From Oceanicoccus sagamiensis (GTDB lineage: Bacteria > Pseudomonadota > Gammaproteobacteria > Pseudomonadales > Dasaniaceae), in assembly GCF_002117105.1 (NCBI RefSeq), contig NZ_CP019343.1:4340001-4404000 (forward strand): a stretch of DNA of 64,000 nt, written 5' to 3'. Below are positions 3,366 through 55,617 of this stretch, piece by piece. A program made the translations under genes and the position numbers. The notes beneath the pieces are model-generated. The model saw nothing but the letters and a program-made list of their open reading frames with translations. It was not told the DNA's origin and made no database searches. Each line of letters begins with the position of its first letter. Within the stretch, counting starts at the first letter, position 1.

Positions 3366-4253
3366 TTAATCAAGATCACTCCAATACGTCCCCTGCCGAT
3401 TAAAATGCTGTAACAAGCTAACAGTATCATCCTTTAGCTCGGCGATAATACGTTGCTTTAATGTCTCATCCCACTCCAGGGAAACCTTAAGATCTTCACG
3501 GCCTATTTTATTCTTTCTCTGCAATGTAGACTCTTTGGAGTTTTTATTTTCAGCACTCAAGTCTGGTCTCCATTCAGCATCGATACCCAGAAACCGACAA
3601 ACATCTTGAAAAACAGCAAAGGTATCGTCCACATAGTCCTCAAACCAGACCACCTTGATATCACTCTCTGGGAACACGCCCCTATAAGCCTGGTAAACCT
3701 CCCAATAACGACTGGAATGGATAATGGCAGGTATCTGTAAAACCGCATCATTAATCGACGCAGGAGCCAAAGAGCCGGGCGTTGAAATATGCTCAATATA
3801 AGCGGACACCATACGCTCTATAGGATGACGCACCATATAGATAATTTTGGCTTTGGGTACATGGTGCTTAATGCGGGCTATGGTATGAGGGTGCTGGCGT
3901 ATACGGGAATAGGATGTTGAGGCATCACCAATCGCCAACTCATTTCTGCAGTGACTATACATGGCCAAATACTGCTTATAGCCTTTGGCATAATTCAGGT
4001 CTTCTGAAAAGAAATGCGGTTCTTTGCGTTGCACAATGGCAGCTTCAGGATGTTCAGATAAGAGCGAAGCTAACGAGGTTGTTGCAGCTTTAGCCGCACC
4101 AATAATAAAGAAGTTGGGCTTAGCCTTACCCCCGCGCTGTCGTTTTTTAACCAAAGAAGAAATTCCCAAAAACTTGTTTAATATCAAGTAATACCTGCCT
4201 TTTTTGACCAGTATTACCACCAGCCAACATTGTACAACAAGACAGCAAAACAT
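3366..4253 (-). CDS. Sulfotransferase, heparan-sulfate/NDST type
   Basis: This should transfer sulfate from PAPS to an unknown acceptor. The 5'-phosphosulfate loop is seen as AAKAATTSL (residues about 53-61) after a beta strand FFIIG. The 3'-phosphate motif is seen as RHPIERMVSAY (about 143-153). The length of 295 residues fits the family. The first 45 residues are hydrophobic then basic, which could be a membrane anchor or could mean the real start lies downstream; ATG at 4253 has no clear ribosome binding site. The gene diverges from the methyltransferase gene with only 41 bp between starts, so their promoters must overlap. It flanks a run of other modification enzymes. Acceptor not predictable. 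Confidence 0.8.
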   Translation of the reverse strand: MFCCLVVQCWLVVILVKKGRYYLILNKFLGISSLVKKRQRGGKAKPNFFIIGAAKAATTSLASLLSEHPEAAIVQRKEPHFFSEDLNYAKGYKQYLAMYSHCRNELAIGDASTSYSRIRQHPHTIARIKHHVPKAKIIYMVRHPIERMVSAYIEHISTPGSLAPASINDAVLQIPAIIHSSRYWEVYQAYRGVFPESDIKVVWFEDYVDDTFAVFQDVCRFLGIDAEWRPDLSAENKNSKESTLQRKNKIGREDLKVSLEWDETLKQRIIAELKDDTVSLLQHFNRQGTYWSDLD

Positions 4254-4294
4254 ATACTAGTACATATATCGGCAACATAATAAAATAAACAAAT

Positions 4295-5272
4295 ATGAAT
4301 AAACTTAATAAAAGCCAATGGACCAGCTACTGGCAGGAAAGCGCCGCTATCAATAGCTTTGGGCCCGACAATTACAATGAAGAAATTGCCAGTTTTTGGC
4401 AACATCAATTGTCCGGAAAAAACTACAGTAAATTGCTCGATTTAGCCTGCGGCAATGGAGCCATATCCTGGCTGGCCAACGATATCATCAACACCGAAAA
4501 TCCCACCACTGAAATTACCGGTGTAGATTTTTCCAATATTACCCCATTCAGCAGCCTGAAACGTAAACCTGAAGACTATCCCTTGCTAAATTTTATAGGG
4601 AATACTGATATTGAAGCACTACCCTTTGAGGACAACAGTTACGATGCAGCTATTAGCCAGTACGGTATTGAGTACTCCAACCTGGACAAAACCATAGCTG
4701 AACTATCCAGGGTACTAAAACACAAAAGCAGCCTTTATCTACTTATACATACACATCAATCTGACATTGTAAAACAGTCTACTAAAAGCCTTCAGCAGTA
4801 TGAAACCATCCTGAAACAACTCAAGATCCATGAAGATTTTCAAAGCTTGCATACTATTATAGGCGCCGAGACCAACATGCAAAAAGTAAGAAACAATCCT
4901 GCTTTTTCTCTACAGAGTAAAGTTATCGAAAGTAAACTAATGCCTATCAACCAAATTATTAAATCCAACAACAACCCACCAGCCCTAATTGCTTATAAGC
5001 AACAATTGATTAGTCGATTCTCAGATCAGGCTATTTCCCAGGGCCCTGCCGGTCGAAAAGAATCCATTGAAGCAGCCAGAAGAACATTTAGCGACTATAT
5101 AAAACGCATCAATGACTTGAAAAAAATTGCATTAAGCGACCAGGCTATCAATAAACTTATTGAATCACTCAACGGACAAGGCTTTTCTATTGAAAACCAA
5201 CAGCCACTGAGCCAAGGGAAAATTGAAAATATCGGACTAGCCATCATTGCACACAGAAATCAACCCGCCTAA
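4295..5272 (+). CDS. Class I SAM-dependent methyltransferase
   Basis: A Rossmann-type methyltransferase of 325 residues. The SAM-binding motif I is seen as LLDLACGNG (about 47-55), followed by an acidic motif in GVDFS and a motif IV-like region ISQYGIEY and a RVLK segment typical of the UbiE/Methyltransf_11 group. The C-terminal half is helical and matches nothing I recognise. It is the first gene of a rightward run of five genes (4295-8679) with short gaps or overlaps, so it is probably cotranscribed with the sulfotransferase and hydroxylase genes. Substrate unknown. Confidence 0.75.
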   Translation: MNKLNKSQWTSYWQESAAINSFGPDNYNEEIASFWQHQLSGKNYSKLLDLACGNGAISWLANDIINTENPTTEITGVDFSNITPFSSLKRKPEDYPLLNFIGNTDIEALPFEDNSYDAAISQYGIEYSNLDKTIAELSRVLKHKSSLYLLIHTHQSDIVKQSTKSLQQYETILKQLKIHEDFQSLHTIIGAETNMQKVRNNPAFSLQSKVIESKLMPINQIIKSNNNPPALIAYKQQLISRFSDQAISQGPAGRKESIEAARRTFSDYIKRINDLKKIALSDQAINKLIESLNGQGFSIENQQPLSQGKIENIGLAIIAHRNQPA

Positions 5273-5285
5273 CCGGAACAGTGTG

Positions 5286-6220
5286 ATGCAGACCTCCCTA
5301 AGCCCGCAAGTTAAAAATTTTATGGCGAATTTTGAGCCACATATGTCGGCAAGCAACGTCCTGAGCACCTTTAAAGACCCGGTATTTATTCTTGCGGCAC
5401 CGAGATCAGGTAGCTCACTACTTTTTAAAACCCTCTGCCAAGCCCCTGATATATGGAGTATTGCTAACGAAAGCCATCAAATTTATGCCAACTTTCCACA
5501 CCTTGCCATGGAAAACAGCAACTTTGACTCTGGGGCGCTCGGTAAAAAGCATGCCGATAAAAAAACAGCTACAGCCTTAAGGGCACTCTACGCGGCATCT
5601 ATTGTTAATAGAAACAACCAACGATTTTTCGACCTCCCCCAAAAACCTAAAAACATTATATTTCTTGAAAAAACCCCAGAAACTCTCTAAACATTCCTTT
5701 TCTAAAGTCTATTTACCCCTCAGCAAGATTTATCTACTTACATAGAGACCCAAGGGAAAATATCAGCAGCATAATCGAAGCCTGGGAACAAGGGGAAAAA
5801 AACGGCAAGTTTATCACCTTCAGAAACCTTCCGGATTGGCCCATGCCACACTGGTGCTTATTACTACCAAGAGGCTGGAGAAATATGAAAGGGAGAAGCC
5901 TTGCGGAGATAGCTGGCTTTCAGTGGCAATCCTGCAACGATGCCATTCTCAATGAACTTGAAAAAATCAGCTCAAAAAAGTGGACCACAATAAGCCACCA
6001 AGAATTAACCAGCAACACTAAAGCCACTGTAACTCAGCTATCCAATTTTATCGGCAACCATATTGACGAGCATTTCGATGAGTATATTAGCCATGAACTA
6101 CCACTTTCATCAACGACTATAACAGCCCCCAAAAAAGATAAATGGATGCGGCATAAGAATGAAATAGAAGCCCTACTACCGGGCCTACAAAAAACGACAG
6201 ATAGAATTAATGCGTTATAA
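5286..6220 (+). CDS. Sulfotransferase, frameshifted as sequenced
   Basis: The first part (stop at 5688-5690) carries the PAPS loop AAPRSGSSLL (about residues 37-46) and runs to EKTP. The remainder continues in another frame as NSLNIPFLKS and then YLHRDPREN, the 3'-phosphate motif. One extra C in the run CCCC at 5674-5677 joins the two parts as EKTPRNSLNIPF, which is how this family normally reads. The joined product has about 311 residues. An ATG at 5247 is also in frame, but it overlaps the previous gene; I prefer 5286. Either a homopolymer sequencing error or a recent inactivating deletion would explain it. Two other genes in the window show the same kind of break, which favours error. The gene sits inside the modification-enzyme operon. 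Confidence 0.75.
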
Positions 6221-6250
6221 CAATATAATTAATTCAGGTGACATTTAATC

Positions 6251-6862
6251 ATGAACATTAAAGGCGACTTTATAAAAATAGATGATTTTGATATTACTGA
6301 TATCAAAGCCCGAGTTCTTGATATCTCCGAAGATATCTGGAATGCAGACGCATTTAGACAAAAAACCTTTGAAGTCCATAAACATACACAAACCATTAAA
6401 CTGATTATGGATGAAGACGGCCGACACACAGGACCGACACTCCACCCTATTTATCACGAATTAGAAAATGTTATAACACCGGTAGAAAACTGCATTCGAA
6501 GAAACTATAACAATACGCTTAAAGCAAAAAAACTACGCAAGAAAAACCCTGCAGGCTACTTTATTCGCATGATATTGGTAAGGCTTAATGCCAAGGGTAT
6601 AATACCAAAACATGTTGATACCGGAGAAACATTGATGAAGTGCCATCGTATACACCTCCCCATTATTACCAATGAAAAAAATATTTTCTCGGTTGGTGAA
6701 AGTAGCAAAGCACTAAAAGCCGGCGAAATATGGGAAATAAACAACCGTCACGAACACGGCGTTGTCAACAGCAGTGACGAAGGGCGTATACACCTTATTA
6801 TGGACTACGTTCTTCCTGGTGAAAAAGTTAAAGACACCGATGGCAGCAACCTAACCTGCTGA
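6251..6862 (+). CDS. Aspartyl/asparaginyl beta-hydroxylase-like Fe(II)/2OG dioxygenase
   Basis: A 203-residue protein with the facial triad of the family: HVD (His121, Asp123) and a distal His169 in the string HGVVN. Arg179 in the following strand GRIHLIMDY would bind 2-oxoglutarate. This His-Val-x-Asn then Arg arrangement is typical of the aspartyl/asparaginyl hydroxylase domain (PF05118). Known members hydroxylate the beta carbon of Asp or Asn in proteins, or free amino acids in peptide pathways. No signal peptide or membrane segment is visible, so it acts in the cytoplasm. It begins 30 bp after the frameshifted sulfotransferase and 12 bp before the SET-like gene. Confidence 0.75.
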   Translation: MNIKGDFIKIDDFDITDIKARVLDISEDIWNADAFRQKTFEVHKHTQTIKLIMDEDGRHTGPTLHPIYHELENVITPVENCIRRNYNNTLKAKKLRKKNPAGYFIRMILVRLNAKGIIPKHVDTGETLMKCHRIHLPIITNEKNIFSVGESSKALKAGEIWEINNRHEHGVVNSSDEGRIHLIMDYVLPGEKVKDTDGSNLTC

Positions 6863-6874
6863 GAATAGTTAACA

Positions 6875-8065
6875 ATGGCCCACATAACCTCAGACAACCC
6901 TGAAGCATCTAAAACACTGCAAGAATTGCAGGAACTGGTCATTGAAAATGGTGGGCATATCCACCCTGACATTAACTTTGTTGTTAACAACAATAGCCTC
7001 AGCATTGAAAGCCCATTAAATGCCAGCAACCAGGACCATCTACTCTACATCCCTGATGCCTGCCTACCCTGCTATGATGACTTCGATATCACGCTTAAGA
7101 ATAATGAGATAGCTATATCCCCCAAAAATCAGAGTATTCCACAAAGCCAACAACAGGCCTTCAATTTATTAATAACATTGTTTAACCTGACTAAGAAGCT
7201 CGACGAGCATCGAGAGAACTTCCCAGGTTTATTGCAACCACTACCCGAAGAAATTATCGAACTCCTGGGCAAAAAAGACCCAAGCGCAAAAACGCAATTA
7301 TCTCCACCGGGTAAAACGGCTGAGCAGCACTTGCTCGACAGCTTTTTTCATACAAGATACCTGAGCAGCGTACGACAGAACGGAGAAAGAAAAAGAGTCC
7401 TGCTGCCGATGATTGACTTTATTAATCATAATGCCAACGCCCTACCTTTTACTACAGCCAGAGCAGATAGCGGCAATTTTATGGGTATTATTGTTTGCCA
7501 CTGGAAAGACAGTGACTCATCTCGAGAATGCTTTGTTGATTACTATCCACTCGATCCAATGGCACGCTTTCTTGGTTATGGCTTTGTTGATACCAGCGCT
7601 AACTATATCCAATCCATCCCGCTCTCAATAGTCATAGAGTCAGTGGGCTGCTTGCATATCAATAACAAACTGCCCAAACCGGAAGAACAGAATAAGCTGC
7701 CCACATTTGAAGCTTTCAGCAAAATCGACAACTATCAGCCCTATGTTCAAATCGACCAAAGCGGTAACCTCACCCTGAGCCATCTGGCCATCCCCATCAA
7801 GGACGATGAGACCAAGCACCTGAACCCTGCTATCAAACATGCTATTCAAATGATGTCCGGAAAAAAACTTAAAGGAAAGAAACTCGAACGCCTTGCTCAA
7901 AAAGCGCAAAAGACCCTTATAAGAGAGAATATTAAATACAGCCAAAATGCCTACAAATATCTGGAAAACCGAGACAATAGTGACCTTACTGAAAGTGCAC
8001 TATCCACATTACAGCAGCTCTTCCAGTTTGAACATCAACAGCTATCAAAGTATCTAAAATCATGA
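6875..8065 (+). CDS. SET-domain protein of the Rubisco-LSMT/SETD3-like type (probable protein methyltransferase)
   Basis: Not annotated by any strong motif, but the layout fits the LSMT/SETD family. Near the N terminus, ENGGHIHP (about 25-31) leads to LLYIP (56-60), as in the SET N-terminal lobe. LLPMIDFINHNANALPF (about 176-192) matches the conserved strand ending in Asn-His that binds SAM. A tyrosine-containing segment DYYPLDPMARFLGYGFVD (about 222-239) matches the SET C-terminal signature ending in YGFV. The last 150 residues are helical, as in the LSMT substrate-binding domain. Family members methylate lysine or histidine in proteins. It overlaps the next gene by 4 bp (ATGA), so the two are translationally coupled. 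The assignment is from sequence reading only. Confidence 0.55.
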   Translation: MAHITSDNPEASKTLQELQELVIENGGHIHPDINFVVNNNSLSIESPLNASNQDHLLYIPDACLPCYDDFDITLKNNEIAISPKNQSIPQSQQQAFNLLITLFNLTKKLDEHRENFPGLLQPLPEEIIELLGKKDPSAKTQLSPPGKTAEQHLLDSFFHTRYLSSVRQNGERKRVLLPMIDFINHNANALPFTTARADSGNFMGIIVCHWKDSDSSRECFVDYYPLDPMARFLGYGFVDTSANYIQSIPLSIVIESVGCLHINNKLPKPEEQNKLPTFEAFSKIDNYQPYVQIDQSGNLTLSHLAIPIKDDETKHLNPAIKHAIQMMSGKKLKGKKLERLAQKAQKTLIRENIKYSQNAYKYLENRDNSDLTESALSTLQQLFQFEHQQLSKYLKS

Positions 8066-8679
8066 AAAAGAAAAAAAAGAGCAATCGGAAACGCCTGCTA
8101 GCCGATGAGAAATTTGTTAACGACAGAACTCGCAACGTTGACCCCTTGCAACGAGAAGAGTCTGAACTCACCGAAGAGGAAATTGAAGCACTAATAGAAT
8201 TTGCCGACCAGAAAGCAGTTCAAGGAGAGTTAGAGCATGACCCTGGCAACAATGCCGACAAAATACGCCGCTCTAAAATCATATGGCTACCCAAAGAAGA
8301 CTTCCCCCAGGTTTATAAAAAGTTATGGCGAATGGCACAGAAGGCCAACAAAGAATATCGCTTTGATATAACGATGTTTATTGATGACATTCAAATATCT
8401 TATTACGACGAAAAAGAGGAAGGGTTTTTCCGCTGGCATACGGATATGGACTTCAGCCGAATGTTGAGAAAACTGTCCATATCGGTACCACTTAATCAAA
8501 GCAGTGAGTATGAAGGCGGTGAATTAAAGTTTAACCCACATGGCGAGGAGGTCACCACATACCAGAAGAAAGGCCAAGGAATTATTTTCCCAAGCTTTGT
8601 ACTGCATACTGTCACCCCAGTCACCAAAGGGCGCCGCTACAGTCTGGTCGCCTGGGTCGGCGGACAGCCATTACGTTGA
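8062..8679 (+). CDS. Prolyl-4-hydroxylase-type Fe(II)/2OG oxygenase
   Basis: A 205-residue oxygenase. HTD (His126, Asp128) and His182 in SFVLHTVTPV form the iron site, and Arg192 in KGRRYSL would hold 2-oxoglutarate. EGGEL between them is typical of the P4Hc/PKHD group. The first 15 residues are very lysine-rich, unlike most members. It is the last gene of the rightward modification operon. Its stop overlaps the convergent TPR-sulfotransferase gene by 9 bp. Likely substrates in the family are proline, lysine or other residues in proteins or peptides; none can be named here. Confidence 0.8.
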   Translation: MKKKKKSNRKRLLADEKFVNDRTRNVDPLQREESELTEEEIEALIEFADQKAVQGELEHDPGNNADKIRRSKIIWLPKEDFPQVYKKLWRMAQKANKEYRFDITMFIDDIQISYYDEKEEGFFRWHTDMDFSRMLRKLSISVPLNQSSEYEGGELKFNPHGEEVTTYQKKGQGIIFPSFVLHTVTPVTKGRRYSLVAWVGGQPLR

Positions 8680-10311
8680 GAGACTCTCTCCCAACCCCTC
8701 AAACAAGGGCTGCAAGTGTTGCTCATATCGCTGCCAGCCTTTTAAGGCTTTAGTGTATACCGGCTGGCGAACCTGCAAAAAACTCGGCGTCTGCACACTA
8801 CGCTTGGACTTATGGAACGACAAACATTCCTCTTCAACGTCTAAATTACAATGGTCCAGAATTTTCCTGACATAGACATCCTTATCAGCAACCAACTCTT
8901 CATAATTAACATCTAAAATCTGCCCCGGAAACAGCTCATGCCAATGCCGCATAATATCCTGGTAACAGCGGTAATATTCACCCAGCTCCTTTAAATCAGA
9001 AGCATAGTAATGTCCTTCTGGAAAGCCCTGCATAAAAATGGATACACAGGTAGCTCTTGGGTCGCGCGTACAATGAATGATTTTTGCATTCGGCAGTAAG
9101 GCAGCGATCAAACCAATATATTGAAAATAATGCGGTGTTTTATCGGTGACAAAAGGCTCTCCAGATGGAGCCAAGGCCTTTAGTTTTTGCCAATAATTTT
9201 GCAATAAAGCGGCATTATCCTCACAGCTCAGCGAGTCAACGATTTCCGGATAAGATAAAGGGCCTGCACTTTCCAGTAAAACACCCAGCGCAAAAAACTC
9301 TCCGGCACCGTGAACAAGAGAATGACTGGCAACAATCTGCTCTACCAGAGAGGTTCCAGAACGAGGCATCCCGAGAATAAAAACAGGGCCCTCAGTATCA
9401 CTAGCATGCTGTTTAAGCTTATCAACATAAGTTGAACTGAAAATACGACAAATACTTTCGACATTAGCACGGTAGTCTGGCGGCCCGGTATTCAAGCTCG
9501 CCCTAAGCAATCGATTACCTTCACTATAAAAATGGAAAGACTTATCAAAATCATGCAAATCATCGTAAGCCTTACCCAAACCCAAGGCAGCCATACGCCG
9601 GTCTTCCATTGAGGCAAATGAGTTTTGGTAAAGTGCCTCCATAGCAAGAATATCATCATCGACGGCTTCATGAGGCGATATTGTAGAAAGAATTCTATGG
9701 GCAATACCGCTACGGGGCTCCAGCGTTAAAACCTTTCGGTAAGTAGCCTGGGCATCTTCAATCCGGTTATCTGCTTTGTAAATATCACCCAAAAACAAAT
9801 AGATTTCACAATTAGATGGATCGGCTTTCGCCGCAGTTAACAAAAGGGATTCAGCATTGGCAAAGTCAGACTTGACCATATAGGTTTTAGCCAACTTTAC
9901 CATCGCATCCGTATTACGCGGCTCCAGCTCAAGAACCCGCTCAAAGCACTCTGGCGCCCCGTCCCTTACCACTCTTATATAAATAACACCAAGATGCATC
10001 AAACAGGGGACATGATCAGGGTCGAGCTTCAGAGCATCTTCAAGTAGCTGTATGGCAAGCTTATAGTTCCCTAACTGGTTATACCAAAACATAGCCAATT
10101 CAAATCTGGCTTGCGGCGTTGCAGGATATTTTTCAATGATAAGCTGGCTATTTTTTTCCACTGTTGCCATATCACCCGCCGCTAAGGCATGCTGCAACAC
10201 AGCCATATCAGCGGCAATTTTTGCCAACAATTTTGCGGAGGTTTTTTTCCTTGTAGAGGGCCTTTTGCCTACTGGAGAGTTGCTTTTCTTTTTCTTACTT
10301 TTCTTCACCAT
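8671..10311 (-). CDS. TPR-repeat sulfotransferase
   Basis: The N-terminal half contains TPR-like helix pairs (for example around LLEDALKLDPDH and YRKVLTLEPRSG), preceded by a lysine-rich tail. The C-terminal half is a PAPS-dependent sulfotransferase with FILGMPRSGTSLVE (about residues 312-325) and a 3'-phosphate motif in CTRDPRATCVS. This architecture is common in marine bacteria and resembles tyrosylprotein sulfotransferases in its catalytic part. I chose the ATG at 10311 (MVKKSKKKK); a TTG at 10359 is also in frame but has no ribosome binding site. The TPR part probably recruits a protein partner or substrate. It converges on the hydroxylase operon. Confidence 0.8.
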   Translation of the reverse strand: MVKKSKKKKSNSPVGKRPSTRKKTSAKLLAKIAADMAVLQHALAAGDMATVEKNSQLIIEKYPATPQARFELAMFWYNQLGNYKLAIQLLEDALKLDPDHVPCLMHLGVIYIRVVRDGAPECFERVLELEPRNTDAMVKLAKTYMVKSDFANAESLLLTAAKADPSNCEIYLFLGDIYKADNRIEDAQATYRKVLTLEPRSGIAHRILSTISPHEAVDDDILAMEALYQNSFASMEDRRMAALGLGKAYDDLHDFDKSFHFYSEGNRLLRASLNTGPPDYRANVESICRIFSSTYVDKLKQHASDTEGPVFILGMPRSGTSLVEQIVASHSLVHGAGEFFALGVLLESAGPLSYPEIVDSLSCEDNAALLQNYWQKLKALAPSGEPFVTDKTPHYFQYIGLIAALLPNAKIIHCTRDPRATCVSIFMQGFPEGHYYASDLKELGEYYRCYQDIMRHWHELFPGQILDVNYEELVADKDVYVRKILDHCNLDVEEECLSFHKSKRSVQTPSFLQVRQPVYTKALKGWQRYEQHLQPLFEGLGESLST

Positions 10312-10448: not shown

Positions 10449-11225
10449 TTAAGCGCGACGCTTACGGCCGATACCAGCTAGACCAACAAGAGCTGAACCA
10501 AATAACCATGCTGCTGCAGGTACTGGAACAGGTGATGGAGCAGGAATTGGGTCAATTGCATTACCGCTTCCGGTTAAGCCCATACCAGTATTACCTGATG
10601 GAGAAACAAAGGTAAGCGATAAATCGCTGAAGAATGCATCTTCAAAAACGGTAAATTCAACTTGGTACAAGAAATCCAAACCATCAATGTTGCCTAGAGT
10701 CCAATCACCACTACAGTCTGCACCAGCTTTAGTAGCACAAGATACTGAACCAGCAGTTAGAGAAACGCTAGGAGCACCAGCAACTAGTGCATCATTGACA
10801 GCAGGACCGCCAATACCAGAAGAAACAGTCGCTTCTACAGTGTTATAAGAGAAAGCAGGGTTGGCCAACGCTGAAGTATAAGGAATTACTGTTGAAGTAC
10901 CAGAAGCGTTACCAGTAGTAAAAGTATACTGGGCTGACTCAAAAGTTACTTCCTGCTGAACACCTTTAGGGATACCAGCAGCACCAAAAGTAGAAGTAGC
11001 ACCGTGCAGAGTTAATACAGCACCTGCGAAAGCACCGTTGTCAGCAGAAACAGCAAAGCTGTAATCAACACTAGCACTACCAGTAGATACCAGGTAAGTA
11101 CTAGATACATAAGCTGAAGCATCTAAACGAGTGTCAAGAGTACCGGTAAAAGTAGTAGTCTGAACAGCAGCTTGAGCTGCAACAGAAGCTGCACTAACAG
11201 CAAGAGCAATAGCTAATTTTTTCAT
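10449..11225 (-). CDS. PEP-CTERM sorting domain protein
   Basis: A 258-residue exported protein. It starts with a signal peptide (MKKLAIALAVSAASVAAQAA). It ends with the tripartite PEP-CTERM signal: PVPVPAAAWLF, a hydrophobic helix and a terminal RKRRA, which directs cleavage by an exosortase. No exosortase gene lies in the window. The middle domain has paired cysteines (SVSCATKAGADCSG) and a GIPKGVQQ segment that resembles the C-terminal domain of the TSP3-repeat protein at the left edge. The ribosome binding site GAGGA sits in a hairpin just behind a probable c-di-GMP-I riboswitch. PEP-CTERM proteins are usually linked to exopolysaccharide and surface structures. Confidence 0.85.
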   Translation of the reverse strand: MKKLAIALAVSAASVAAQAAVQTTTFTGTLDTRLDASAYVSSTYLVSTGSASVDYSFAVSADNGAFAGAVLTLHGATSTFGAAGIPKGVQQEVTFESAQYTFTTGNASGTSTVIPYTSALANPAFSYNTVEATVSSGIGGPAVNDALVAGAPSVSLTAGSVSCATKAGADCSGDWTLGNIDGLDFLYQVEFTVFEDAFFSDLSLTFVSPSGNTGMGLTGSGNAIDPIPAPSPVPVPAAAWLFGSALVGLAGIGRKRRA

Positions 11226-26988: not shown

Positions 26989-29249
26989 TTATAAAGAACC
27001 ATACTTCTTGCGTAAACTTTGACGCACAATTTCTGCAATGGTGTTGACCACAAAGGTAAACAGGAATAAAACAAATGCAGCCAGGAACAACACTCGATAG
27101 TGGGAGCTATCCACTTCGGTCTCACCTATTTCAACCGCGATATTGGCCGCCAGCGTACGCATACCTTCAAAGATATTGGCATCCATCACCGGTGTATTAC
27201 CCGTGGCCATTAATACAATCATAGTTTCACCCACAGCTCGGCCCATACCAATCATTAGGGCAGAAAAAATACCGGGGCTGGCGGTAGGAATAACCACACC
27301 GACCAATGTTTGCCAAGGGGTTGCCCCTAGAGCCAACGAACCATAGCTCAGTGATTTGGGGACCGAGAAAATCGCATCTTCGGCAATAGAGAAAATAGTG
27401 GGGACTACCGCAAAGCCCATTGCGATACCGACCACCATAGCATTGCGCTGATCATAGGAAATACCCAGGTCATAGGTTAACCAGGCGCGCATATCGCCAC
27501 CAAAAAATAACAGCTCCAGATTGCCACTGGCCGCTACACAGGCCCAGGCGATAAACATCACAACCGGGATAAGCAATACCGCATGCCAGCCATCGGGCAC
27601 ACGCAGCCTTAGGCTATCAGGCAAGCGACTCCAGCAAAAACCAAAGAGCAAAACTCCAACTGGCATCAGTAAAAAGATACTAAAGACACCGGGAAGATTT
27701 TTTTCAATAAATGGGGCCAGCCATAAACCTGCCAGAAAACCCAAAATAACCGTGGGCAATGCTTCCATTAATTCAATCAGCGGCTTGACCTTACGACGAA
27801 CCACCGGGGTCATAAAGTAAGCGGTGTAGATAGCACCGCATAAAGCCAATGGCGTTGCAATTAACATCGCGTAAAAGGCCGCTTTTAACGTACCAAACGC
27901 TAAAGGAGTAAAGCTGTATTTGGCTTCAAAATCATTATTGGATGCGGAGGACTGCCAAATATAATCAGGCTCAGGATAACTTTCGTACCAGACTTTTTCC
28001 CAGAGTGCCTGCCAGGAGACTTCGGGGTGCTCGTTATCGAGTTTCCAGTAGCTAAACTCACCCTTATCATTTTGTGTTAATAATGCCTTGGCGCGGGGGA
28101 AACCGCTAACTGGCTAATAGTGGATGCTGCATCCGCAATGGATTGGGACAGTAACTGGCGACCAGACGTTGTATAGTAAATGGCTAAGGTATTGTCGCTA
28201 TCAACAGCTAGAAAACCTTTACGGCGATGCTCAGGGGCTGTTAGCTTAATAGCCTTATCGCCACCCTGAAAGCTGCGAATATATTGCAAGCGTGGCGGCT
28301 CACCATCACCGCGCACCATAAACCACTGTTGAATTTCACCTTGATCACTGGAGATCATTAAGGAGATTTCACCCAGCAGAAAACGTACATTGCTCACTTC
28401 GCCTTTATCGATCAAACGGCCGCTATCAACAATCTCTTCGCTATTCAGATTAATAACGCGATAGTCGCCCTGCTTGCTAACGACATAGGCCCAGCGCTGA
28501 TCCGGGCCGACTAATAACCATTCCATATTGATATCAATATCTGGCAGATCAAGTATTTCTTCTTCCAGCACAATTTCTTCAGTCAGAAAATCTTCTTCTT
28601 TAACAAAACGCACCCCTTCAAGCTGGCCATCAACTTCTGCCAGTAATAATAATTGCTCCTCGGTATCGCGAACGGCAATTTTATTAATAACACCCTGACT
28701 GACTGCAATGCTCTCTTCACCGTAGGGGTATTCTATTTGGGGGGTAATCAACCGCTTATCATTGGGGTAGCTGATTTTATAAACCGGCTTGGCTAATAAC
28801 ACATCACCGCCGGTGGCCATCGCCAATAAGGGCTGTTGCTCCGAGTGGAGACTAAAAGCGGTTAATTCAGCAGCCAATGGCAACTGGAATTGCTTGACTG
28901 TTTTGCCGCTATTGGCCGCAAAGAAATCTACCTGACCATTAGACCTAAGCTGAACCGCGACTTCCGCCTGCTCTTCCATCGCCAGATAGAGAGGTTCTGA
29001 ATCTGCTCCCCGCCCCTGCTCCAGACTATAACTGCTAACCGGCTCCAGGCTGGCGCTCTTAAACAGCGGCATAATCTCATATAACAAATAGAAGAATATC
29101 AACAAGATAGCGAGCAAAACCGCCATTCCACCGGCTGTGATGGTGAAATTAGCCAGTTTATCTTTGGTTTTACGCCAGCCACCAAGGCTGTCATCAAAGA
29201 TACTGCTCTTGGCTGCGGATGGGGGCTGTAGGGTATCTGTATTTTGCAT
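26989..29249 (-). CDS. pstC: Phosphate ABC transporter permease PstC, frameshifted as sequenced
   Basis: Two frames make up one long-form PstC of about 753 residues. The upstream frame (29249 to a stop at 28077) holds TM1 and the large periplasmic domain. The downstream frame holds the permease part (TMs, GSLALGATPWQTLVGVV). The frame changes at the run of five G at 28095-28099 (C on the coding strand). One extra C gives AVSPRAKALLTQND and then continues through NEHPEVSWQALW, as PstC proteins do. A sequencing error is the simplest reading, since the rest of the operon is intact. The ATG at 29249 sits about 7 bp after the -10 box of a Pho promoter, so the mRNA may have almost no leader. Confidence 0.88.
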
Positions 29250-52245: not shown

Positions 52246-52734
52246 ATGCCTGAGCAAGACCCACTCGCACAATTACGGGATATTCATTTGCCAGATGCGA
52301 TTAGCGCCTGGCCGCCTGCGCCGGGGTGGTGGTTACTGCTGGCGATAATTATTGCCCTATTGGCTTTTGGCAGCATTTACTGGCGTAACTATTTACAACG
52401 TAACCGCTACCGCAAACACGCCTTACACGCTCTGGTATTACTAGACCGAGAAAACCCCAGCGATTATCTACAGCAATTAAACCGCCTATTAAAACAAACC
52501 GCTCTGGCTGGTAAGCCCCATAGTGATATTGCCGGTTTAAGCGGCCAGCAATGGCTCTCATTTCTGGATACCACCGGTGGTAGCACCGACTTTAGCCAAG
52601 GGGCCGCCAAAGCCCTGGAGTATGGCCCCTATACCCCTCAGGTTAGCGAACTCAATACTACCGAGCTACAACAGATTGCCGAGCAATGGATTAAACAGCA
52701 CGATTTAAGACGGAGTGCCAAGCCGTCATGCTAA
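52246..52734 (+). CDS. DUF4381 membrane protein
   Basis: 163 residues. Start LAQLRDIHLPDAISAWPPAPGWW, then a TM helix (LLLAIIIALLAFGSIYW) and a cytoplasmic helical domain (GLSGQQWLSFLD). The DUF4381 family is found only in this operon type. GTG 52243 could also start. Confidence 0.88.
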   Translation: MPEQDPLAQLRDIHLPDAISAWPPAPGWWLLLAIIIALLAFGSIYWRNYLQRNRYRKHALHALVLLDRENPSDYLQQLNRLLKQTALAGKPHSDIAGLSGQQWLSFLDTTGGSTDFSQGAAKALEYGPYTPQVSELNTTELQQIAEQWIKQHDLRRSAKPSC

Positions 52735-53777
52735 CGTATGAATTGCCATGGGTTATCTATTTACTACCATTGCCCTTGCTGGCCTTTTGGTTATTACCCA
52801 AAGCCAAACAACAACAGGCCGCCGTTCGAGTGCCCTTTTATCAGCAACTTTCCGGCCTGGAACAACCAGGCACGGAGGCCATCAGCCAGCGTAAATTAAG
52901 ACTGAGCTCACTGGCATTCATCTGGTGCGGTTTACTTGCAGCCGCCTCCGGCCCCACCTGGATTGGCGACCCTATCAGCCTGCCCGCCAGTGGCCGTGAT
53001 TTATTATTGGCCGTTGATCTCTCCGGCAGCATGAACATTGAAGATATGGTGGTCCGCGGCAAACAGGCAGCACGAATTACGGCGGTAAAAGCTGTGCTCA
53101 ATGACTTTATCCAACGGCGCAAAGGCGACCGCTTAGGCTTAGTGTTATTTGGTAGTCAGGCCTATGTGCAAGCCCCTCTTACTTTTGACCGCACCACCGT
53201 ACAGCGCTTTATGAAAGAAGCACAAATTGGTTTTGCCGGTGAACAAAATACCGCCATTGGTGATGCTATTGGTCTATCAGTAAAACGACTGCGTGATCGG
53301 CCCGGTGATCGCCATGTTATGATTCTACTAACCGATGGCCAAAATAACGGCGGTGAAGTTAAACCTATTCCTGCGGCAAAACTGGCGGCTGACAATAATA
53401 TTGTTATCTATACGGTTGGGGTTGGCGCCGACGAGATGGTCACCAAGGGAATGTTTGGCAGCAGCTTTGGTTCACGCCGAGTTAACCCCTCCGCCGACCT
53501 CGATGAAAAAACGCTACAGCAAATTGCCGATATGACTGGCGGCAAATATTTTCGCGCCCGCAACCCGGAACAGCTATTAGACATTTATCGCATCCTGGAT
53601 GAACTCGAGCCGGTTGAAGACAAGCAAGAAACCTTTAGGCCACAAAAAGCCTTATTCTATTGGCCGCTGGCCTTTGCCTTAGGCTTAAGTGGTTTATTGG
53701 CAGTGGGGTTATTACCCTGGCGATTATGGTGGTCTGCCCTGACGGATAAGCCTCTGGCTGCGGAGAACAACCGATGA
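52728..53777 (+). CDS. VWA-domain membrane protein (BatA-like)
   Basis: 349 residues. TM at the N terminus (WVIYLLPLPLLAFWLL), a second TM, then a VWA domain with MIDAS motif DLSGSMNIEDM and TDGQNNGG, and a C-terminal TM (LAFALGLSGLLAVGLL). BatA-type proteins bind metal through MIDAS and work with MoxR. Overlaps the previous gene by 7 bp and the next by 4 bp. Confidence 0.93.
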   Translation: MLTYELPWVIYLLPLPLLAFWLLPKAKQQQAAVRVPFYQQLSGLEQPGTEAISQRKLRLSSLAFIWCGLLAAASGPTWIGDPISLPASGRDLLLAVDLSGSMNIEDMVVRGKQAARITAVKAVLNDFIQRRKGDRLGLVLFGSQAYVQAPLTFDRTTVQRFMKEAQIGFAGEQNTAIGDAIGLSVKRLRDRPGDRHVMILLTDGQNNGGEVKPIPAAKLAADNNIVIYTVGVGADEMVTKGMFGSSFGSRRVNPSADLDEKTLQQIADMTGGKYFRARNPEQLLDIYRILDELEPVEDKQETFRPQKALFYWPLAFALGLSGLLAVGLLPWRLWWSALTDKPLAAENNR

Positions 53778-55617
53778 GCCCGCAGCTAATCCTTGATCAG
53801 TTTCATTTTTTGCGGCCAGAGTGGTTGCTGGCCATTATCCCTGCCACCTTACTGGCGCTGTTCTTCTGGCGACAAAAAAGCAGCGCCGCTAATTGGCGTG
53901 GTGCTATCAACCCGCAACTGCTGGATCACTTGATTGACGGCGGCAGTCAACGAGTGGCTCGATGGCCCTGGTTGTTGCTATTACTGGTCTGGGTAACGGC
54001 ATCCATTGCCATGGCTGGCCCCACCTGGACCAAACTCCCTCAGCCCATTCATAAAAAACAGGATGCCCTGGTCATTGTGCTCGACCTGTCACTGTCGATG
54101 CTGGCGGAAGATATTAAACCCTCGCGATTGGTAAGAGCCCGCCATAAAATCCTTGATATATTAGCCCAACGAGAGGAAGGCCTAACCGCCCTGATCGCCT
54201 ACTCTGGTGATGCTCATATTGTTTCGCCACTGACCGATGATAACCCCACCATTGCCAATCTGACCCCGGCCCTGGCCCGGGGATGATGCCAGTATTTGGC
54301 AGCGATCCAGTGGCGGCTCTAACCATGGCCAAGCAATTATTTAGAAATGCAGGCGTCAGCAATGGCCGCGTATTACTGATTACCGATGGCGTAACAGACA
54401 ATGATGTGGATGATATTGACAACCTGCTTAGCCGCAGTGGCTATGAACTATCGATTATGGGAGTTGGCACACCCGATGGCGCACCGATACCAGCAAGGTC
54501 CGGTTTTCTCAAAGACGACAACGGCAATATTATTGTGCCGCAATTGCAGCGCTCACGGCTGGAACAGCTGGCCAAGTATAATAGCGGCCGTTATACCGAT
54601 ATCAGCCTAAACGATAATGATGTGAGCTTTCTCTTAACCAAACTGACCACCGAACTTGAAGATAATACGGTACTGACCGAACGGGAATTTGATCAATGGC
54701 ATGACCGCGGCCCTTTACTGGCCCTGGCCTTATTACCCTTCGCTTTGCTGGCCTTTCGCAGAGGCTGGCTATTGATATTGCCGCTATTGATCATGGTGCA
54801 ACCGCAAACCAGCCATGCCTTTGAATGGCAAGACCTCTGGCAGCGAGCCGACCAGCAAGCAGCCAAAGCGCTGGAGCAAGGCGACGCAAAAGCCGCAGCC
54901 AAACTGTTTAAAGACGAGCAATGGCAAGCCAGCGCCAACTATAAAGCCGGCGATTTTAAAAACGCCGCCCAGCAGTTTGCTCAACAAGACAATGCTACCG
55001 GCCACTATAATCGTGGCAACGCCCTGGCTAAAGCCGGTCAACTGGATAAGGCGATTGCCGCCTATAATAAAGCCTTAACACAGCAACCGGATATGGAAGA
55101 CGCTGCCTTTAATAAGCAATTGCTGGAACAACTTAAACAACAGCAAGAGCAACAACAAGAACAACAGCAGCAAGAAAACCAGGACGGCGAACAATCCGAC
55201 GAAGAGAGCCAGGACTCAGAACAGCAAGACCAACAGCAAGGTGATCCACAAAATCAGGACAGCGAACAACAACAAGACGACCAGCAAGACAGCGAGCAAC
55301 AGTCCCAACAGGACCCACAAGAGAATCAGGATCAGCAGGACTCTAAGCAAGATAGCGAACAGCAAGACGCTGAAGAGTCAGAGCAAGAGCAACAACAGCA
55401 AACAGAACAAAGCGAAGAGGAACAGCAGCAAAGCGAGCAACAACAGGCTCAAGCCTCAGAGCAAGATCAACAAAGCCAACAGGAAAAGCAAGCTATGGAG
55501 CAATGGTTACGGCAAATTCCCGACGACCCTTCTGGCCTGCTACGTCGCAAATTTAATCATGAATCACAAGTTCGCCAGCAGCAGGGTGAAACTCAACGGG
55601 AGCAACCACAGTGGTAA
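53774..55617 (+). CDS. VWA and TPR protein (BatB/BatC-like), frameshifted as sequenced
   Basis: One protein of about 614 residues is split into two frames. The first (to 54286) has TM helices, a MIDAS motif DLSLSMLAED and stops after TPALARG. The second begins MMPVFGSDPVAAL. One extra G in GGGG (54280-54283) joins them as TPALARGMMPVFGSDP, the normal BatB reading. After the VWA domain come TM helices, TPR repeats (GHYNRGNALAKAGQLDKAIAAYN) and about 130 residues very rich in Q, E and D, then a short conserved tail (QWLRQIPDDPSGLLRRKF). Probably a sequencing error. GGAG lies before ATG 53774. Confidence 0.88.

Follow-up and report, generated by a model that had tools for sequence, protein, structure and literature searches.

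The question raised by this locus is whether seven consecutive genes for sulfation, hydroxylation and methylation enzymes in Oceanicoccus sagamiensis act as one pathway. They lie at positions 3366 to 10311 of a 64,000-nucleotide stretch, referred to as the window (C1:4340001-4404000 of the 4.47-Mb single-contig genome G000; G and L numbers denote genomes and loci). The original prediction, made from the letters alone, had proposed ordered modification of a ready-made peptide or protein by three sulfotransferases, a class I methyltransferase (MT), two different hydroxylases and a SET/LSMT-like methyltransferase, and linkage in unrelated strains was to support a pathway. The seven genes were found as described, five of them on the plus strand and with a 4-bp overlap between the gene of a 396-amino-acid (aa) protein and the 2-oxoglutarate (2OG) oxygenase gene OG3; MT and the two hydroxylases (PF05118 and PF13640) were confirmed by Pfam. 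As a set, the seven genes are not conserved. What recurs in unrelated strains is the PF05118 hydroxylase, AspH, paired with the second sulfotransferase, ST2, often together with a TPR-sulfotransferase (TPRST). This AspH-ST2 unit is widespread and strongly conserved within a non-conserved island.

Conservation of the AspH-ST2 pair

AspH belongs to the PF05118 family of Asp/Asn beta-hydroxylases (46.9 bits, curated cut-off 22.6). Residues H121, D123 and H169 of the HxD...H motif, which bind Fe(II), are present in the proteins of the window and of G063; across 67 AspH sequences of ST2 loci, H121 was found in 59, D123 in 65 and H169 in 64. Searching 390 genomes of the order with an AspH profile gave 34 genomes at E<=1e-12. 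The AspH places in 20 of those held a TonB receptor gene (15/20), a propeller-like gene (13/20) and a TPR-sulfotransferase gene (12/20), the receptor and propeller profiles having been seeded partly from the same AspH loci. Several families of the order share a module in which AspH is accompanied by a TonB receptor, a propeller-like protein and a TPR-sulfotransferase (L069-L074, L077, L081-L083 and L085).

Using an ST2 profile, 20 of the 390 genomes were obtained at E<=1e-12, nine of them at E<1e-60. Four of these nine were known beforehand via AspH. In the five new ones, AspH was adjacent to ST2 (G017, G169, G146 and G261) or fused to it (G225).

With an ST2 alignment, 84,980 species were also scanned, each represented by one genome, and the best 80 of 398 relatives were kept; going by record titles, these came from Proteobacteria, Cyanobacteria, Planctomycetes, myxobacteria and others. 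Among these best 80 of 398, AspH and ST2 were fused in 28 and adjacent in 37, and AspH was undetected in 15. Removal of three seed-genome duplicates (L116, L122 and L127) and addition of eight loci from the order search resulted in a set of 85 loci, for which counts were made on all reading frames rather than on the longest of overlapping frames, and genes were called adjacent when AspH lay within 1.5 kb of ST2. AspH was fused to ST2 in 29 loci and adjacent in 41 (40 of them with both genes on the same strand), giving 70 of 85 loci linked or fused; the 85 are not all independent, because ST2 is at least 85% identical in seven locus pairs. The window pair (5286-6862) lies within the same distance. 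Triple fusions of AspH, ST2 and DUF4915 were found in G225, L179 and L188. Distances among AspH and among ST2 sequences were correlated (r=0.71 for 67 pairs, reached by 0 of 2000 permutations), as shared ancestry alone would also yield. The pairing of AspH with ST2 exceeds chance, a statement that covers the pair and not the seven genes as a set. In a literature search, with subscription journals mostly outside it, no account of an AspH-sulfotransferase pair, of SecB with sulfotransferases or of DUF4915 was recognised.

Tryptophan-halogenase-type genes were seen in eight ST2 loci (L125, L130, L134, L135, L138, L139, L150 and L158; Pfam was run on one of them, L135), some of which also carry a TonB receptor, and L130 has up to five Trp_halogenase-type genes in a row. 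In this they resemble TonB-receptor clusters with tryptophan halogenase, a known pattern on which the literature search found nothing; the window differs in having no such gene.

Ties to SecB in related islands

A SecB paralogue sits between AspH and ST2 in seven of the 85 loci (PF02556 was run on three of the seven genes). A TonB receptor gene lies upstream in six of them, and the seventh, L117, is an incomplete stretch. Two SecB genes, one being that of the island, were found in each of the seven island genomes, versus one in each of seven comparison genomes, the window's included. SEC-C is the tail of SecA and binds SecB. ST2 carries it C-terminally in 14 of the 85 loci, and in 12 of those 14 AspH does as well, as detected with an in-house profile built from sequences of this kind; Pfam SEC-C (PF02810) was confirmed on ST2 and AspH of L107, on ST2 of L178 and L160, and on AspH of L185. 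In L195, a TPR-sulfotransferase carries an N-terminal SEC-C. One of the SEC-C pairs is that of Shewanella colwelliana (L172), and one of the SecB islands that of Sphingomonas hylomeconis (L143). Island SecB and SEC-C were never found together (0/85), and one or the other was present in 21 of the 85 loci. Because these are two different ties to SecB, unfolded preproteins are suggested as the substrate.

A SEC-C motif is known in a mycobacterial protein (PMC6032435). Gut aryl-sulfate sulfotransferases belong to a different family, and the sole mention of SecB in that report concerns signal peptides (PMC10932419).

Islands resembling that of the window

Relatives of the other window genes were found in related islands, each on its own: ST1 in L110 and L185, MT in L160 and the SET-like gene in L016. 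L160 has the order MT-ST2-AspH of the window; its ST2 bears SEC-C, and a TonB receptor and two TPR-sulfotransferases are encoded there too. The L160 MT aligns with the window MT over nearly the full length (21% over 321 aa, 2e-14) and was the sole relative of that protein at E<=0.01 among the other loci compared. In L110 and L185, a divergent ST1 (34% identical to the window ST1 over 113-122 aa) accompanies a SEC-C-bearing ST2-AspH pair, together with genes for a TonB receptor and a TPR-sulfotransferase; another PF13640 hydroxylase is encoded in L110.

G063, from another family of the order, holds within 9 kb a frame-broken SET-like gene, TPR-sulfotransferase genes (one broken), AspH (44% identical to that of the window) and ST2 (43% and 34% identical to the two window pieces), as well as another PF05118-like gene and one whose product was read as a beta-propeller but hit no profile. 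Small secreted-looking homologues of each other (26%, 1e-6) adjoin AspH in G063 (L016 18402-18974) and G285 (L066 4783-5319) and are a possible substrate. The Peristeroidobacter/Steroidobacter loci L144, L148 and L192 carry a TonB receptor, a TPR-sulfotransferase, fused AspH-ST2 and, beside another AspH, a relative of ST4, a sulfotransferase-like gene upstream of the window. Two HprK-like genes and a relative of ST4 accompany AspH in L068.

The window island and its ST2 gene

Features of the island are collected in Table 1. The original prediction placed the seven genes correctly and made the island too small, as it continues upstream of the window. ST4 scored 21.4 bits with PF00685, slightly below the cut-off of 22. 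AspH2 is a second PF05118 hydroxylase; it is 43-50% identical over ~315 aa to AspH of islands L160, L110 and L185 and has no SEC-C tail.

Table 1. Genes of the island and its flanks (window positions unless C1 is given; PAPS, 3'-phosphoadenosine-5'-phosphosulfate; ORF, open reading frame)
Feature	Position	Strand	Support
TSP3-like Asp-rich exported protein, 1229 aa	98..3307, start lies upstream of window	+	lipoprotein-type signal read by eye
ST1, PAPS sulfotransferase	3366..4253	-	PF13469 1e-18, PF00685 5e-15
MT, class I methyltransferase	4295..5272	+	PF08241
ST2 first piece (putative 5'-PAPS-binding part), frameshifted sulfotransferase	5286..5690	+	PF13469 27.9 bits on ORF 5247-5690
ST2 second piece, different frame	5691..6220	+	34% to intact G063 homologue; both pieces align to ST2 profile
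AspH, PF05118 Asp/Asn beta-hydroxylase family	6251..6862	+	PF05118 3e-12; HxD...H motif
SET/LSMT-like protein (assignment unsupported), 396 aa	6875..8065	+	homologues only: own-genome paralogue, G063
OG3, PF13640 2OG-Fe(II) oxygenase, PKHD/P4H-like	8062..8679	+	Pfam
TPRST, TPR-sulfotransferase	8671..10311	-	PF13469 3e-44 plus TPRs
VPLPA/PEP-CTERM-type exported protein, flank	10449..11225	-	tail scores just under curated cut-offs
Upstream stretch L004: gltA, ST4, AspH2, TonB-dependent receptor, carbamoyltransferase, start of TSP3-like gene	C1:4325001..4345000

All three predicted sulfotransferases are supported by PF13469 or PF00685, with the restriction that ST2 is split over two frames and that, standing alone, only its first piece matches a sulfotransferase profile. 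The break falls between what we take to be the 5' and 3' PAPS motifs, and ST2 is not a single open frame in this assembly. Its homologues in G063 and G285 are unbroken. A pstC-like gene of the window (26989-29249) is likewise split into two frames, at ~28095; the G002 relative is open across the break, with 99% identity on one side and 89% on the other, and the pstC split is probably an assembly indel. With pstC as a second broken gene nearby, the ST2 frameshift may equally well be an assembly indel or mark a pseudogene. An apparent interruption between 53777 and 54283 was also noted in VWA/BatA-BatB-like genes (52728-55617), from the ORF list only.

A domain at the end of the TSP3-like protein recurs in the PEP-CTERM-type protein (27% over 147 aa, pairwise E 9e-9), and the island is thus bracketed by two related exported proteins. 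The TSP3-like protein, previously named as one possible substrate, is a substrate candidate or a bystander.

Turnover at the site

In G003, of the same genus, gltA and the TPP/ALDH genes flank the corresponding site, which carries a TonB receptor in two pieces (53-79% identical), a TSP3-like protein with partial homology to that of the window (34% over 371 aa), a TPR-sulfotransferase (31% identical) and a PEP-CTERM gene that matches in its tail only. By blast, no ST1, MT, ST2, AspH, SET-like, OG3, ST4, AspH2 or carbamoyltransferase gene was found at that site; a broken OG3 homologue occurs elsewhere in G003. No island gene was found in the 9-10 kb fetched beyond gltA in G001, G002 and G009. 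The middle genes of the window island are low in GC (AspH 0.391 and MT 0.401, versus 0.471 for the window). Different content in G003, absence from the stretches examined in G001, G002 and G009 and low GC together indicate that the content of the site turns over. One conserved seven-gene pathway was rejected, as the G003 site holds one of the seven, a TPR-sulfotransferase.

The SET-like protein and OG3

The assignment of the 396-aa protein to SET/LSMT depended on motifs and gained no support from profile or sequence searches. No Pfam family was matched at E<=1 and no NCBIfam family at E<=0.1; a three-row profile matched no PDB sequence at E<=10, and the single sequence matched only an unrelated phage protein (E=0.55). 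The gene was found in 2 of the 390 order genomes, that of the window and G063, and a scan of genome contigs with the single protein gave no relative. A second pair of SET-like and OG3 genes lies at C1 2.752-2.755 Mb (28% and 43% identical, respectively), so that this linkage is seen twice in the window genome. As the core of a joint system it was rejected: G063 has the SET-like gene without that 2OG gene in the 20 kb read, and G039 has the 2OG gene without SET. In this second locus (L003 8409-12094), the pair is followed by a 407-aa protein that is possibly a double 2OG enzyme, its sole Pfam match being sub-threshold.

Discussion

In the explanation proposed here, AspH would hydroxylate a residue, most likely giving a beta-hydroxyl on Asp or Asn, and ST2 would afterwards move sulfate from PAPS to the hydroxyl made by AspH. 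Because CurM-type domains sulfate a beta-hydroxyl and some PF05118 enzymes form beta-hydroxyls on Asp or Asn, sulfation of the hydroxyl installed by AspH is the simplest way to join the two activities. The reaction would take place in the cytoplasm, on exported proteins held unfolded by SecB ahead of Sec export. The likeliest substrates would be exported proteins, the TonB-dependent receptor next door among them. The TPR-sulfotransferase would be a frequent partner, and ST1, MT, OG3 and the SET-like protein would be accessory enzymes that are variably present; the window island would work like its relatives. Modification before export would explain why cytoplasmic enzymes are encoded beside secreted proteins. 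To AspH-ST2 being a two-step hydroxylation-sulfation unit acting on SecB-held preproteins before Sec export we assign a probability of about 0.5. The ready-made protein substrate of the original prediction is thereby favoured, on account of the SecB and SEC-C ties in relatives, without the joint seven-gene pathway. Only tentatively can the proposal be taken further: O-sulfated beta-hydroxy-Asp or -Asn (~+95.95 Da) would be an undescribed modification, made by AspH-ST2 on SecB-held outer-membrane or other exported preproteins, with the enzymes recruited via SEC-C tails or a dedicated SecB paralogue, and the window island would be a more complex form to which methyl transfer and a second hydroxylation have been added.

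Such a unit would share parts with several known systems. PF05118 includes human ASPH, the lipid A hydroxylases LpxO and proline hydroxylases. Island AspH resembles the Asp/Asn beta-hydroxylases in Pfam family and HxD...H motif, and differs in being paired with or fused to a sulfotransferase. Both the TPRST and ST2 profiles are related in sequence to protein-tyrosine sulfotransferases (TPST), of which RaxST is a bacterial example, at weak to moderate E-values (4e-6 and 1e-5 for TPRST against the PDB). Unlike TPST, the island enzymes appear cytoplasmic, with no export signal seen, and are linked to a hydroxylase, as well as to SecB in the relatives. The sulfotransferase domains of CurM and olefin synthases are the closest solved relatives of ST2; CurM works within a polyketide synthase, whereas the island has none and the partner hydroxylase would supply the hydroxyl. 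Targeting of SecA to SecB through SEC-C has a parallel in PF02810 and PF02556 of the related islands, where they are attached to or beside modifying enzymes instead of the translocase.

Several observations weigh against the two-step unit on preproteins. AspH was undetected in 15 of the 85 ST2 loci and absent in all four neighbourhoods examined of the 11 genomes with weaker ST2 matches, and ST2 of the window is frameshifted. Neither SecB nor SEC-C was found in 64 of the 85 loci; there is no SEC-C on the window enzymes and no SecB in the island (window or L004), the only SecB found in G000 being at C1:1206732, outside it. A TonB receptor was found in just 21 of the 85 loci (and in 3 of the 14 with SEC-C), and for that reason is not a universal substrate. 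Against the PDB, the ST2 profile ranked CurM and another polyketide-synthase sulfotransferase before the protein-tyrosine sulfotransferases, and AspH had a single solved relative at E<=0.01, L-proline cis-4-hydroxylase. No modified protein was seen.

The two structural matches are also what brings in the chief rival, in which a free or carrier-bound metabolite (an amino acid, peptide or siderophore) would be hydroxylated, sulfated and methylated, the TonB receptor importing or sensing it. Some ST2 loci, including several that lack AspH, share adenylation- or ACP-like neighbours (read by eye), which points the same way, as does the top NCBIfam match of the receptor, the TonB-siderophore family, which scored under its cut-off. 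The island genes scanned include no core biosynthesis gene, however, and a small-molecule route, which we consider rather unlikely, would give little reason for SecB paralogues or SEC-C tails. The same ties to SecB speak against decoration of the cell surface, with sulfate, carbamoyl and methyl groups placed on a polysaccharide or part of lipid A. That account would make use of the upstream carbamoyltransferase (PF02543/PF16861), of the lipid A hydroxylases within PF05118 and of a GH20 hexosaminidase relative that immediately follows ST2 in six of the seven SecB loci (L117-L121 and L123; elsewhere in the locus in L143; Pfam was run on L117 only). No glycosyltransferase was present among the island genes scanned. 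Surface decoration is the least probable of the explanations considered.

It is likewise improbable, if a little less so, that nothing beyond chance unites the genes and that a turnover hot spot has collected independent ones. Low GC, the different content of the G003 site, the lack of an island in the stretches examined by gltA in G001, G002 and G009 and the restriction of the SET-like gene to two of 390 genomes all agree with such a pile-up. It is plausible for the seven-gene set and is contradicted for AspH-ST2 by the 70 of 85 loci in which the two are linked or fused.

If the two-step unit on preproteins is real, proteins on the SecB route would be chemically edited before translocation, by enzymes that bear the SecB-binding tag of the translocase or supply a SecB of their own. 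Both the place and the chemistry of the modification would then be new, and by record title the system has relatives in several phyla. Its newness is tied to a protein substrate; with a small-molecule substrate, the system would be a variant of known tailoring. Given the sequence ties to SecB in some relatives, the AspH-ST2 unit may modify proteins ahead of their export.

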